47,126 nt of DNA from Candidatus Methanoperedens sp. (GTDB lineage: Archaea; Halobacteriota; Methanosarcinia; Methanosarcinales; Methanoperedenaceae). The stretch covers positions 1 to 47,126 of the forward strand of contig JAUSDC010000021.1 in the NCBI GenBank assembly GCA_030650845.1. The letters run 5' to 3'. Positions 7,381-12,505 of the stretch are shown here, in pieces. The position numbers and the translations under genes were made by a program. Positions within the stretch are counted from its first letter, which is position 1. Each line of letters begins with the position of its first letter. A model generated the notes under the pieces. It was not told the DNA's origin and ran no database searches. It was given only the letters and a program-made list of their open reading frames with translations.

Positions 7381-7491
7381 CTGAATAATTTGCGTCACTA
7401 TTTATATAATAAACCGGCAGTATCCTTCCTATTGCTGAGCAAACTTAATATACTATCACAGCTATCGTCTGCTTCCCCAACGAGAGGAAAA

Positions 7492-8829
7492 ATGTCTGAA
7501 TACACCTTATTTCTGGGATGCATAATCCCGGCGCGTTTTCCTTTTATGGAAAAATCCACGCGCCTTGTTCTATCCAAGCTCGGTTGCGTTCTGCACGACC
7601 TTGAAGGAGCCACGTGCTGCCCCACAAAAAGCATCATCAAACCGATGGGCGAGATGGGCTGGTATGTTACGGCTGCAAGGAACCTTGCTCTGGCAGAGAA
7701 AGCAGGACATGATCTACTTATACCCTGCAACGGCTGCTACAGCACTTTAAAAACGGTTGATGTTGAACTGAGACTAAATCACGCACTCAGGGATGAGGTA
7801 AATAAGGTCCTCTCCTCTGCAGGGCTGGAATACCGCGGAACCATCGAAGTTAAGCACCTTGTCGAAGTGCTGCATGATGACATCGGGATCCCTAAAATAA
7901 AGCAGCTCATCAAGAAACCGTTTGACGGAATGAAGCTTGCGGCACATGCCGGATGCCACATGCTGCGCCCCAGCTCATCCATATTCTTTGATGACCCGAA
8001 CAAGCCAAAGAAATTCGATGCGCTGATAGAAGCACTGGGGGCAAAGAGCATTGATTACGATACAAAGATGCTATGCTGCGGCGGGAACCTGAACACGGCA
8101 GACGAACCGGATGAAGCATCAGCCCTTGCAAGGATGAAACTTCAGGAGGTCACAAAGAAAGCGGATGCACTTGCGCTAACATGCCCGTCATGCTTCATGC
8201 AGTACGATTCACGTCAGTACCTACTTCAAAAGAGCGGCGAGAAATTAAACGTCCCAATTCTATTTTACCCCGAATTACTCGGTCTTGCCATGGGTTTTAC
8301 AACTCAGGAACTGGGCATGGATATGCACAGGATAGATGCTGCTGAATTCCTATCGAAGTGGGATTCAAGATACAACTATCTCAAGACTCTAAAAGAAGTT
8401 TTTGACCTGCCTTCGCTCATAAAGTGCTACGAGTGCGGCGCATGCGTTAATGACTGCCCTGTTGTGAAGGTCAGCCCTGAATTCAATCCAAATGAAATAA
8501 TAGGCAGGATCCTGTCAGGTGAACTTGATGCGGTTATAGACTCTCATAATATTTGGCGATGTGTGGACTGTTACACATGTTATGAACTCTGCCCGCAGAA
8601 AATGGGCATGAATAAGATATTTGATAAGCTGAAACATATAGCTAATGAAAGAGGAAAAGGACCAAAGGGGTTCAATGCCAGTATCGAGATGTTCAGGAAA
8701 GAGGGAAGATTGGGCGAACCAACATCCGTAAGAAAGAAATTAAAACTATCCGAACCTCCCAGGAGCGGAGGGGAAGAATTGAAGAAATTATTGCTAATAA
8801 TACAAAAAGGAGAAGAAAATGAAGTGTGA
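7492..8829 (+). CDS. HdrB-HdrC fusion protein (CCG-domain and [4Fe-4S] electron carrier)
   Basis: A 445-residue protein from the ATG at 7492, preceded by GAGAGG; the longer frame from 7390 adds 34 residues without family resemblance. The first ~300 residues are HdrB-like with two CCG domains: 'FLGCIIPARFP', 'GATCCPTKS', 'IPCNGC', then 'AHAGCH', 'MLCCGGN', 'LTCPSC'. The last ~110 residues are HdrC-like with two [4Fe-4S] motifs, 'CYECGACVNDCP' and 'CVDCYTCYELCP'. In heterodisulfide reductases this pair carries the disulfide-reducing cofactor and its electron relay. Here the order is B then C in one chain, the opposite of HdrD (C then B). The gene overlaps the glutamate synthase amidotransferase gene by 11 bases and is clearly cotranscribed. 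An electron-transfer role for glutamate synthase is an inference; the substrate is unknown. Confidence 0.85.
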   Translation: MSEYTLFLGCIIPARFPFMEKSTRLVLSKLGCVLHDLEGATCCPTKSIIKPMGEMGWYVTAARNLALAEKAGHDLLIPCNGCYSTLKTVDVELRLNHALRDEVNKVLSSAGLEYRGTIEVKHLVEVLHDDIGIPKIKQLIKKPFDGMKLAAHAGCHMLRPSSSIFFDDPNKPKKFDALIEALGAKSIDYDTKMLCCGGNLNTADEPDEASALARMKLQEVTKKADALALTCPSCFMQYDSRQYLLQKSGEKLNVPILFYPELLGLAMGFTTQELGMDMHRIDAAEFLSKWDSRYNYLKTLKEVFDLPSLIKCYECGACVNDCPVVKVSPEFNPNEIIGRILSGELDAVIDSHNIWRCVDCYTCYELCPQKMGMNKIFDKLKHIANERGKGPKGFNASIEMFRKEGRLGEPTSVRKKLKLSEPPRSGGEELKKLLLIIQKGEENEV

Positions 8830-9895
8830 TGGAATACCATCCGGTTGTGCGATCTCCGGATTGATGAGTGAAGAAGGCAGACGTATCGATGGCAGCGTTA
8901 TAATAAGATCCATCGCCAATATGCACGACCGCAGCAATGGTCTGGGCGGAGGATTTGCAGCATACGGCATTTATCCGAAACGTCAGCACCAGTATGCTTT
9001 CCACATGATGTTCGATAATATCGAGGCAAAGGAAACCACTGAAGAGTTCTTCAAGGACGTGTTCAACGTGGACAAGGACGAACCCATCCCCACACACAGG
9101 GAGAACGGTATCAAGAACCCTCCAATACTCTGGAGATATTTCCTCGAAGTGCCTGAGAACAAGCTTGAGTTCATCACAGAGAGGGACTATGTCATGAAGA
9201 AAGTCATGCAAATAAACTCAGAGATAGAAGGTGCTTTTGTTGCATCTAGCGGGAAGAACATGGGCGCGTTCAAGGGCGTAGGATACCCTGAAGATATCGG
9301 GAAGTTCTACAAACTGGAGGAGTACAATGCATACATCTGGACATCGCATGGCAGGTTCCCGACCAACACACCGGGGTGGTGGGGAGGAGCGCATCCATTT
9401 ACGCTTCTTGACTGGTCAGTCGTGCATAACGGCGAGATATCTTCATACGGTATCAACAAGCGATACCTGGAAATGTTCGGGTACAAACTCGAACTGAGGA
9501 CTGATACAGAGGTAATAGCGTATCTTTTTGACCTGCTTGTAAGGAGACATAAGCTTCCGATTGATCTTGCTGTGAAGGCTCTGGCATCTCCTTTCTGGAA
9601 GGACATTGATCGCATGGAGCCAGCGCAAAAGAAAATCGCGACTGCTATAAGGCAGGTTTACGGGAGCACGCTTATGAACGGACCATTCAGCATAATACTG
9701 GGTCATAACAGGGGTATGATAGGACTTAACGACAGGATAAAGCTGCGCCCAATGACCGCAGCCCGGAAGGACGATATGCTCTACATGGCATCGGAGGAAG
9801 CTGCGATACGTGAGATAGCGCCCGACCTTGACACTATATGGAGCCCGAAAGCAGGCACTGCTGTCATAGGCACCCTTAATGCAGAGGTGGAATAA
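8819..9895 (+). CDS. Glutamate synthase, glutaminase (class II amidotransferase) subunit
   Basis: A 358-residue Ntn-type class II glutamine amidotransferase, the separately encoded first domain of archaeal glutamate synthase. It hydrolyses glutamine and passes ammonia to the synthase subunit. Motifs seen: 'TSHGRFPTNTPGWWGGAHPF' (~175-195) and 'VVHNGEISSYG'. The catalytic Cys must be N-terminal in this family. Here the match to 'CGIAG' is 'GCAISG' with Cys at residue 10, so a nine-residue propeptide would have to be removed. The gene overlaps HdrBC upstream and shares a TAATG stop/start with the synthase subunit downstream. Confidence in family is high; the propeptide is inferred. Confidence 0.9.
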   Translation: MKCDGIPSGCAISGLMSEEGRRIDGSVIIRSIANMHDRSNGLGGGFAAYGIYPKRQHQYAFHMMFDNIEAKETTEEFFKDVFNVDKDEPIPTHRENGIKNPPILWRYFLEVPENKLEFITERDYVMKKVMQINSEIEGAFVASSGKNMGAFKGVGYPEDIGKFYKLEEYNAYIWTSHGRFPTNTPGWWGGAHPFTLLDWSVVHNGEISSYGINKRYLEMFGYKLELRTDTEVIAYLFDLLVRRHKLPIDLAVKALASPFWKDIDRMEPAQKKIATAIRQVYGSTLMNGPFSIILGHNRGMIGLNDRIKLRPMTAARKDDMLYMASEEAAIREIAPDLDTIWSPKAGTAVIGTLNAEVE

Positions 9896-11394
9896 TGGAA
9901 TCACAACTGCCAGCAGAATTTGTGGTGAACGTAGATCATGAAAAGTGCCGCAGGTGCAAGCGCTGTGTTATCAATTGCAGCTTTTCAGCCATAGAGTTCA
10001 AGGATAAAGTCACTCCCAACAACAGGCAGTGCGTGGCCTGCCACAGGTGCGCTACTTTCTGTCCGGAAAATGCGATAACTATCACTGAGAACCAGCTTGA
10101 TTACAAGGATGGATATAACTGGACCCCTGAGATCAGGAAGAACATACTGAAGCAGGCTGAAAGCGGCGGCATAATACTTACTGCCATGGGAAACCCGAAA
10201 CCATATCCTATTTACTGGGACCACATGCTTATAGATGCATGCCAGGTGACGAACCCATCCATAGACCCGCTTCGTGAGCCAATGGAACTGCGCACCTACC
10301 TTGGTGCGAAGCCAGAATCCCTGGAATTTGACAGCGATGTAAACCTGAAAACAGAGCTTACCCCGCAGGTGAAGATCGACATACCAGTGGTATTTGCTGC
10401 AATGTCTTATGGTGCTATCAGCCTGAACGCGCATAAAGCACTGGCAATGGCTGCAAGGCGCATGGGAACGTTGATGAACACAGGTGAAGGGGGTCTTCAT
10501 GAAGACCTTGCTGATTATACTGACAGGATCATAGTCCAGGTCGCATCGGGAAGATTCGGCGTCACGAGCAAATACCTGAACAACAGCGCACTTGTGGAGA
10601 TAAAGATCGGGCAGGGCGCAAAACCCGGCATCGGAGGGCATCTGCCAGGCGAAAAAGTAGGCGAGGATATCTCAAAGACGCGTATGATACCTGTAGGAAC
10701 AGATGCACTATCTCCTGCGCCGCATCATGATATTTATTCTATCGAAGACCTGTCGCAACTAATTTATGCAATAAAAGAAGCTACCGACTATAAAAAACCA
10801 GTATCAGTCAAGATAGCGGCTGTGCATAACGTCGCAGCTATCGCAAGCGGTATCGTGCGTGCCGGCGCTGATATTGTTATGATAGACGGTTTCCGCGGCG
10901 GAACCGGCGCAGCACCAATGATCATTCGCGACCATGTCGGGATACCCATCGAGCTTGCACTTGCAGCAGTGGATGAGAGGCTGAGGCAGGAGGGCATCCG
11001 CAACCGAGCCTCTATCCTTGTTGGAGGAAGCATCAGGCAGAGCGCTGATGTTGTGAAGGCAATCGCGCTTGGCGCTGACGCCTGTGTCATTGGCACGGCA
11101 TCACTTATCGCAATGGGCTGCCGCGTTTGCCAGAAGTGCTATACAGGCAACTGCGCCTGGGGCATAGCCACGCAGAAGCCTGAGCTTGTTCGAAGGCTGA
11201 ATCCCGAAGTAGCGGCAGATCATTTGTGTAATCTCCTTACTGCCTGGGGTCATGAGATACAGGAAGTGCTTGGTTCGCTGGGCATCAATGCGATCGAGTC
11301 TCTGCGCGGAAGCAGAGAACGCCTTCGCGGCGTGGGACTTAGCCAGGAGACGCTGGATATACTTGGGATCAAACATGCCGGGATAGGACAGTGA
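9895..11394 (+). CDS. gltB: Glutamate synthase, central FMN/Fe-S synthase subunit
   Basis: A 499-residue archaeal-type glutamate synthase synthase subunit. It makes glutamate from 2-oxoglutarate, ammonia and electrons. Residues ~10-70 are an added 2x[4Fe-4S] ferredoxin domain ('CRRCKRCVINC', 'CVACHRCATFC'), which points to ferredoxin and not NAD(P)H as donor. The rest is the FMN-binding barrel with 'TGEGGLHEDL', 'VKIAAVHNVAAIASGIVRAGADI' and 'DGFRGGTGAAP'. The 3Fe-4S cysteines lie in 'CRVCQKCYTGNC' near 404-416. It is the middle member of the split three-gene enzyme. The next subunit does not follow directly but after a 382-base gap holding a palindromic element. Confidence 0.93.
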   Translation: MESQLPAEFVVNVDHEKCRRCKRCVINCSFSAIEFKDKVTPNNRQCVACHRCATFCPENAITITENQLDYKDGYNWTPEIRKNILKQAESGGIILTAMGNPKPYPIYWDHMLIDACQVTNPSIDPLREPMELRTYLGAKPESLEFDSDVNLKTELTPQVKIDIPVVFAAMSYGAISLNAHKALAMAARRMGTLMNTGEGGLHEDLADYTDRIIVQVASGRFGVTSKYLNNSALVEIKIGQGAKPGIGGHLPGEKVGEDISKTRMIPVGTDALSPAPHHDIYSIEDLSQLIYAIKEATDYKKPVSVKIAAVHNVAAIASGIVRAGADIVMIDGFRGGTGAAPMIIRDHVGIPIELALAAVDERLRQEGIRNRASILVGGSIRQSADVVKAIALGADACVIGTASLIAMGCRVCQKCYTGNCAWGIATQKPELVRRLNPEVAADHLCNLLTAWGHEIQEVLGSLGINAIESLRGSRERLRGVGLSQETLDILGIKHAGIGQ

Positions 11395-11421
11395 TTACTA
11401 TGGGCATTTTATATGGAAAAA

Positions 11422-11722
11422 AACCGCAGATAAAAGCGCCCAGAGTCACGCCTCTGGAGGGCGTGTCCACCTATGCCCTGCGGGGCATAGGTGTGCGCGG
11501 AGTCGAGAATCCGCAGGGTTTCGGCATTGATGAACGCAGATTTGTTGTTCCTTATATTGAGCAATTATATCCAGCTATATTAAGCAATTCACCGCAAAGT
11601 TCGCAAAGTTCGCAAAGATTATTTCCGCACTTAATGTCAGAGATTGGACATGTATGCCCCAGCAGGGGCATACGTGGATGCGCCCTCCAGAGGCGCGACT
11701 CTGGGCGTCATTATCTGCGGTT
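11422..11722. repeat. Palindromic non-coding element inside the glutamate synthase operon
   Basis: The gap between the synthase and GXGXG genes is framed by long, imperfect inverted arms of ~70 bp: 11422-11492 and 11649-11722. Matching pieces include AACCGCAGATAA/TTATCTGCGGTT at the outer ends, then CGCCCAGAGT/ACTCTGGGCG, then GCCTCTGGAGGGCG/CGCCCTCCAGAGGC. Each arm also contains its own hairpin (CTATGCCC-TGC-GGGGCATAG and TATGCCCC-AGCA-GGGGCATA). The ~155-base centre includes three copies of CGCAAAG at 9-base spacing (11593-11617). A 129-codon open frame crosses the element but is low-complexity and arm-encoded, and I do not regard it as a gene. It may be a MITE-like insertion or a structured RNA element. 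Confidence 0.8.
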
Positions 11723-11776
11723 AATATTCGAAATGCAAAAAAGTGTAGCAAATGGCACAAAAGGATGTGACATTAT

Positions 11777-12505
11777 ATGAGAATCGACGCAAAAGGCATT
11801 CATTACAGACCCCTGAACAAGATAATCCGCGATGCTGTGGCATCGGGTGAGAAGGAGTTCGAACTAGATAACATCGGCGGGCAGAGATACATAGGCGATG
11901 GATTGAACGAAAGTGTAAAAATAACCATCAACGGCACCCCCGGTAACGACCTTGGAGCATTCATGAACGGACCCAGGATAATCGTCAATGCCAATGCGCA
12001 GGACGGAATAGCCAACACCATGAACGCTGGTGAGATAATCGTACATGGCAACGTGGGTGACATTATCGGATACGGCATGCGCGGCGGGAAGCTATACATC
12101 AAGGGTGATGCCGGCTACCGTGTGGGGATTCACATGAAGGAGTACAAGAAGCAAATACCAGTTATCATCACAGGGGGCACAGCAGGCGACTTCTTTGGAG
12201 AGTACATGGCAGGTGGCATAATGATCCTCCTCGGATTGAACAATAAGAGCCCGCTTGTTGGTGATTATGTGGGTACTGGCATGCACGGGGGCGTGATGTA
12301 TATTCGCGGAACGGTTGATCCGTACCATATAGGGAAAGAAGTTAGCTGCCTTGAGTTGAACGAAGAAGATACAAAGCTCATTGGGTCATATCTTAAAGAG
12401 TATTGCGAATGCTTTGGTTTTGATTATAACGAAGTGATGGGCGGGAAGTTCACCAAGCTTGTACCGTTGTCACACAGACCGTATGGGAATTTGTATGTGT
12501 ATTGA
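11777..12505 (+). CDS. Glutamate synthase, GXGXG (domain 3) subunit
   Basis: A 242-residue right-handed beta-helix protein of the GXGXG family, equivalent to the C-terminal domain of large glutamate synthase subunits. It plays a structural role, holding the amidotransferase and synthase domains and the ammonia tunnel. The repeating phrases 'GDGLN', 'GTPGNDLGAFMNGPRIIVNANAQDG', 'GEIIVHGNVGDIIGYGMRGGKLYIKGDAGYRVGIHM' and 'GTGMHGGVMYIRG' are typical. It completes the three-part enzyme begun at 8819. Its distance from the synthase gene is unusual, as the palindromic element intervenes. Confidence 0.9.
   Translation: MRIDAKGIHYRPLNKIIRDAVASGEKEFELDNIGGQRYIGDGLNESVKITINGTPGNDLGAFMNGPRIIVNANAQDGIANTMNAGEIIVHGNVGDIIGYGMRGGKLYIKGDAGYRVGIHMKEYKKQIPVIITGGTAGDFFGEYMAGGIMILLGLNNKSPLVGDYVGTGMHGGVMYIRGTVDPYHIGKEVSCLELNEEDTKLIGSYLKEYCECFGFDYNEVMGGKFTKLVPLSHRPYGNLYVY

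Follow-up and report, generated by a model that had tools for sequence, protein, structure and literature searches.

Palindromic repeats within an open reading frame that bridges two glutamate synthase genes of Candidatus Methanoperedens

Within a 47,126-nt stretch of Candidatus Methanoperedens DNA, hereafter called the window, two glutamate synthase genes that usually lie next to each other are separated by a palindromic element of about 300 bp, which raises the questions of what this element is and how the operon accommodates it. The upstream gene (positions 9895-11394, plus strand) encodes a GltB-like Fer4/FMN protein, namely the FMN/Fe-S protein of glutamate synthase (PF01645, E=7e-145), and the downstream gene (11777-12505, plus strand) encodes the GXGXG-domain subunit (PF01493, E=1.4e-33). 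The initial annotation described the element as splitting the operon, a misleading expression because a bridge ORF, hereafter the relay, retains stop-start overlaps with both genes. The relay spans 11391-11780 on the plus strand (129 codons from GTG 11391, 126 from ATG 11400). Its start covers the upstream stop in the sequence GTGA (11391-11394, plus strand) and its stop covers the start codon of the GXGXG gene in the sequence ATGA (11777-11780, plus strand), so that the 4-nt overlap characteristic of translationally coupled pairs (-4/-1 nt) is present at both ends. The whole palindromic element is contained in this ORF, a point absent from the initial annotation. Given that the preceding ORFs of the operon also overlap by their coordinates (7390-8829, 8819-9895 and 9895-11394), stop-start overlaps follow one another without a break once the relay is included. 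The predicted product of the relay includes VTPLEGVSTYALR and returned no database homologue and no match in Pfam or NCBIfam.

The multi-hairpin palindrome that had been proposed from inspection is borne out by computation. Its inverted arms (11422-11478 and 11666-11722) are 57 nt long without gaps, 88% complementary and 187 nt apart, and constitute the strongest inverted repeat in the whole window. The plus strand of 11395-11776 folds at -178 kcal/mol, against -110 +/- 5.6 kcal/mol for shuffled sequences (z = -12.2; 0 of 100 shuffles as good), and each arm contains its own hairpin (11468-11493 and 11649-11676), both with a folding energy of -22.4 kcal/mol and z about -6. Since the arms match many dispersed copies, the element can be resolved into three parts. 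The first is a full copy, defined by alignment of copies, of a dispersed palindromic repeat of ~122 nt (11422-11544, plus strand), which has the organization CCGCAGAT...palindrome...GAACGCAGATTT and reads as PQIKAPRVTPLEGVSTYALRGIGVRGVENPQGFGIDERRF, with the inner hairpin CACCTATGCCC/GGGCATAGGTG at 11468-11493 on the plus strand. This is followed by a second dispersed short repeat, CACCGCAAAGTTCGCAAAGTTCGCAAAG (11590-11617, plus strand), beginning with CACCGCAAAG and read as SPQSSQSSQR, and by another copy of the palindromic repeat, incomplete and inverted (11642-11727, minus strand), which includes the right arm and its hairpin and is 90% identical to a sequence on another contig of the genome (G000:C105). 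No direct-repeat family was found in 11300-11850, the copies there being inverted and diverged.

Genome-wide searches with the arms, extended to relatives, retrieved many diverged and dispersed copies in the same genome and in most congeners, including a 122-nt copy (G000:C230:8211-8332) that is 94% identical to 11422-11544; the element was matched in 22 of the 23 genomes of the same genus in the sample. Almost all exact matches to the core pattern of the repeat lie in Methanoperedens or close kin, and on this basis the repeat appears to be confined, or almost confined, to Candidatus Methanoperedens. Aligned copies have in common a body that hardly varies and a covarying central hairpin: in 23 copies, 22 cells are changed on both sides of the inner hairpin, against 7.5 +/- 2.1 in shuffles, and no slid control comes close. 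The differences between the arms with retained pairing, which had been taken as a hint of selection on structure, are thus real. The suggestion of a MITE-like insertion is supported, for the copies are dispersed, their ends are inverted sequences of the CCGCAGAT type and the composite terminates in the inverted repeats AACCGCAGAT...ATCTGCGGTT; the comparison of empty and filled sites yielded no consistent target-site duplication. A Y1 transposase with four matches in the genome is a candidate mobiliser only. One copy (L066) lies on a contig titled Bacteroidales bacterium (JADGPT010000084.1), which may point to horizontal transfer or to mis-binning of a contig from Methanoperedens.

The repeats are also found in frame inside conserved proteins, and the unit is open in one and the same frame in 24 of 25 copies; the family is therefore compatible with coding. 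The short form, organized as CCGCAGAT-AACGCAGAT-GAACGCAGAT, encodes the peptide PQ-NADERR. Depending on the genome, a loop of peptidase U32 (L214-L242) has no insert, the short insert KPQMNADERRF, or that same insert with a palindrome set into it in frame, the nested form reading KPQMKAPRVTPLEG...GFGIDKRR. Similarly, the C-terminus of MvhD is either NPVKEVKK or ...KPQMNADERR... with or without the nested palindrome, so that for both proteins orthologues free of the insertion are known. An AlbA-domain protein and a HhH-GPD protein carry the repeat at the N- and C-terminus. In these arrangements the short CGCAGAT element itself serves as the target of a nested palindrome of ~90 nt, and the U32 loop offers a good system for testing how such inserts are tolerated. 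Copies are present as well in two paralogous genes for ABC-transporter ATPases (L019 and L023 on G000:C19), where they adjoin the signature motif and apparently substitute for part of the coding sequence; these genes may be pseudogenes.

We then consider how the glutamate synthase junction varies across the genus. Among 31 Methanoperedens genomes, the GXGXG gene is present in 26 and the junction is readable in 25. The two genes are separated by a short spacer of 4-11 nt in 10 of these 25 junctions and by a filler of 70-382 nt in the other 15, composed of repeats, largely different ones, or of short stretches of unique sequence. All 15 fillers are open in frame from a start adjoining the stop of the first gene; their own stop falls exactly on ATGA in 14 and a few nucleotides earlier in G021. 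The content of the site thus turns over while frame and overlaps are preserved. The sister genomes G014 and G040 illustrate this turnover: the relay of the former reads MSNFYDKLSRMDAFRIKGHGAL*, whereas the latter has an in-frame insert of 291 nt (97 codons) between FYEK and LSKTDAF. On a gene tree that is partly unresolved, genomes with and without the relay are intermingled, which requires at least 10 changes, six of them forced by well-supported branches; a single origin of the relay was rejected on account of this pattern.

The same situation recurs at other operon junctions. The trpE and trpG genes either overlap by 4 nt or have between them fillers that overlap both genes, and moxR and the DUF58 gene are either 0-3 nt apart or separated by fillers, some of their junctions being occupied by long inserts that do not bridge. 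We take GltB-GXGXG and TrpE-TrpG to be pairs of complex subunits. Pooling the three junctions, with six moxR-DUF58 junctions that contain a separate long gene or a long non-repeat insert omitted, gives 39 fillers, of which 36 bridge the two genes; dinucleotide shuffling of these gaps leads one to expect 7.8 (tail probability 3e-37 if fillers are treated as independent, which those of related genomes are not fully). The fillers failing to bridge are two at trpE-trpG, L122 with a frameshift and L125 with the repeat joined to trpE, and one at moxR-DUF58 (L173). Among fillers of at least 120 nt, 25 of 30 have an open coupling frame, whereas 3 of 60 other sense frames and 5 of 90 antisense frames are open. 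As the elements are palindromes, their antisense strand serves as a fair matched control. A census of the context of 44 pattern hits was dropped as a control, because too many hits lay at contig edges or had doubtful gene calls.

In Haloferax and in E. coli, termination-reinitiation requires overlaps or very short gaps (PMC10666635, PMC6728339) and is almost lost with gaps of ~20 nt (PMC10666635); short overlaps are enriched among genes that encode subunits of complexes (PMC10666635). Hundreds of inserted nucleotides would consequently uncouple the genes unless they were themselves translated, which makes a bridge ORF a natural solution. The locus is probably best explained by a mobile-looking, coding palindromic family that has produced a composite insert, surviving in the operon only as a bridge ORF that preserves termination-reinitiation. 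According to this explanation, palindromic repeats would have inserted into a small ORF lying between the closely spaced glutamate synthase genes, and the insert would survive only if a single open frame connected the stop of the first gene with the start of the second. The ribosome finishing the upstream gene would re-initiate at the overlapping GTG/ATG, translate the hairpin-rich bridge ORF, terminate at ATGA and re-initiate on the GXGXG gene, so that synthesis of the subunits would stay coupled. The proposed bridge ORF would account for the frame, for both overlaps and for the turnover of content, and we infer from these features that ribosomes translate the relay and that selection acts on coupling. 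Several considerations temper this interpretation: the repeats are largely open on their own, so that the fillers owe part of their openness to them, and a Shine-Dalgarno-like (SD-like) motif is often kept before the downstream genes, making independent initiation possible; the failing fillers, the non-bridging moxR-DUF58 inserts and the incomplete independence of fillers from related genomes also count against it. Broader still, and rather doubtful, is the idea that operon junctions of Methanoperedens in general are landing sites for coding palindromes that turn into translated relays. Ribosomes would then pass from gene to relay to gene, and the relays, variable and rich in hairpins, would fix the proportions of the subunits of a complex, tune operons and yield new small proteins.

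The alternative that survives best, which we nonetheless regard as unlikely, considers the repeat as purely selfish and coding-compatible, landing anywhere and sparing ORFs by its very nature, with coupling irrelevant. The openness of 24 of 25 copies in one frame whatever their context, together with the in-frame copies within the U32, MvhD, AlbA-domain and HhH-GPD genes, is just what such a repeat would produce. However, it leaves unexplained why the open frame of the fillers is the frame of ATGA with overlaps at both ends, rather than any of the other sense frames, why the non-repeat spacer sequence within fillers is open too, and why their antisense strand so seldom is.

Much less credible is that the bridge ORF represents a genuine small protein gene, encoding a functional peptide with a variable, repeat-derived middle. 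The ends of the relay do recur in congeners (start M-S-N-F-Y-E-K, stop I-K-G-R-D-A-L), and minimal forms of 22-28 amino acids without large repeats occur in G014, G022, G009 and G013; yet the ORF is missing from 10 of 25 genomes, its middle is not conserved, the conservation of its 3' end overlaps the SD/start region of the next gene, and the domain searches mentioned above speak against it as well. We consider it very improbable, too, that the hairpins act in cis as RNA to attenuate, stabilise or process the mRNA, the role in tuning the output of the GXGXG subunit that the initial annotation had envisaged and that we do not retain. The fold is very stable and the inner hairpin covaries, but this covariation is a trait of the dispersed family in every context, relatives carry unrelated repeats or nothing at the site, and the Rfam search of the element gave no match above threshold (best 20.8 bits vs 47 required). 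Moreover, RNA structure needs no open frame, yet the open frame is the constant feature of the filled junctions. Finally, an assembly artefact is scarcely believable: the source assembly consists of 258 contigs and repeats provoke mis-assembly in metagenome-assembled genomes, but syntenic glutamate synthase genes flank both sides in 25 genomes, long assemblies such as G014 (10 contigs) have the same architecture and the frame would not survive mis-joins.

The preferred explanation, a frame-preserving bridge made of coding repeats, can be related to known systems. According to reviews (PMC2229807, PMC10969869), the Rickettsia palindromic elements (RPE; Ogata et al.) are dispersed coding palindromes of 100-150 nt that occupy intergenic positions and also lie in frame within conserved genes. 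The Methanoperedens repeats likewise are multi-copy palindromes of ~100-150 nt with in-frame protein insertions and a conserved peptide frame, and we read them by analogy as an RPE-like family with coding potential. In contrast to RPE, they are archaeal, nested (the CGCAGAT element plus the inner palindrome) and form recurrent operon bridge ORFs overlapping both neighbours; the likeness is one of description. The same holds for a palindromic repeat family fused into protein genes of Methanocaldococcus jannaschii (2005, cited in PMC2229807), archaeal as well but of another lineage. The in-ORF tandem repeats of Borgs are Methanoperedens-associated and kept in ORFs under strong selection, but they form perfect head-to-tail arrays and are reported to be virtually absent from host genomes (PMC9879509), whereas the repeats described here are dispersed palindromes in the host, with no head-to-tail tandem units. 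With ATGA-mediated coupling (PMC6728339, PMC10666635) the relay shares the 4-nt overlaps, present at both of its ends, and the association with genes for complex subunits; the difference is that the coupled partner is a repeat-made ORF set between two enzyme genes. Coding palindromic repeats are therefore of a known kind, while what is new is that coupled junctions have been filled serially with the frame preserved; a literature search for the repeat strings or for palindromes in Methanoperedens, with subscription journals mostly outside its scope, retrieved no report.

These results extend protein-coding palindromic repeats to methane-oxidising archaea, with a clear evolutionary filter. Repeated and largely distinct insertions at the same junctions amount to natural experiments suggesting that the interval separating coupled genes must stay translatable, by which translational coupling in an uncultured archaeal genus becomes testable from sequence. 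Annotators should be warned that many 'hypothetical proteins' in these genomes are repeat-made bridges.

Some individual fillers have additional features. In the trpE-trpG junction of G002 (L148), a CGCAGAT repeat replaces the start of trpG, resulting in an in-frame N-terminal extension of TrpG (MSIDTKKPQMNTDERRC-TKVLFVNN). In the moxR-DUF58 gap of G007 (L158), an unrelated ORF is extended C-terminally in frame by several repeat families and ends 5 nt short of the DUF58 start. Many fillers, among them L155, L156, L160, L167, L168, L175 and L177 of the moxR-DUF58 gap and the glutamate synthase filler of G046 (L115), close with CATAAAGCGAGGTGTCGCTTTATG or a very similar sequence. This ending is a palindrome whose loop holds the SD-like GAGGTG and whose stem holds the ATG of the next gene, possibly a portable ribosome-binding-site hairpin, and it occurs in variant form at glutamate synthase junctions too.
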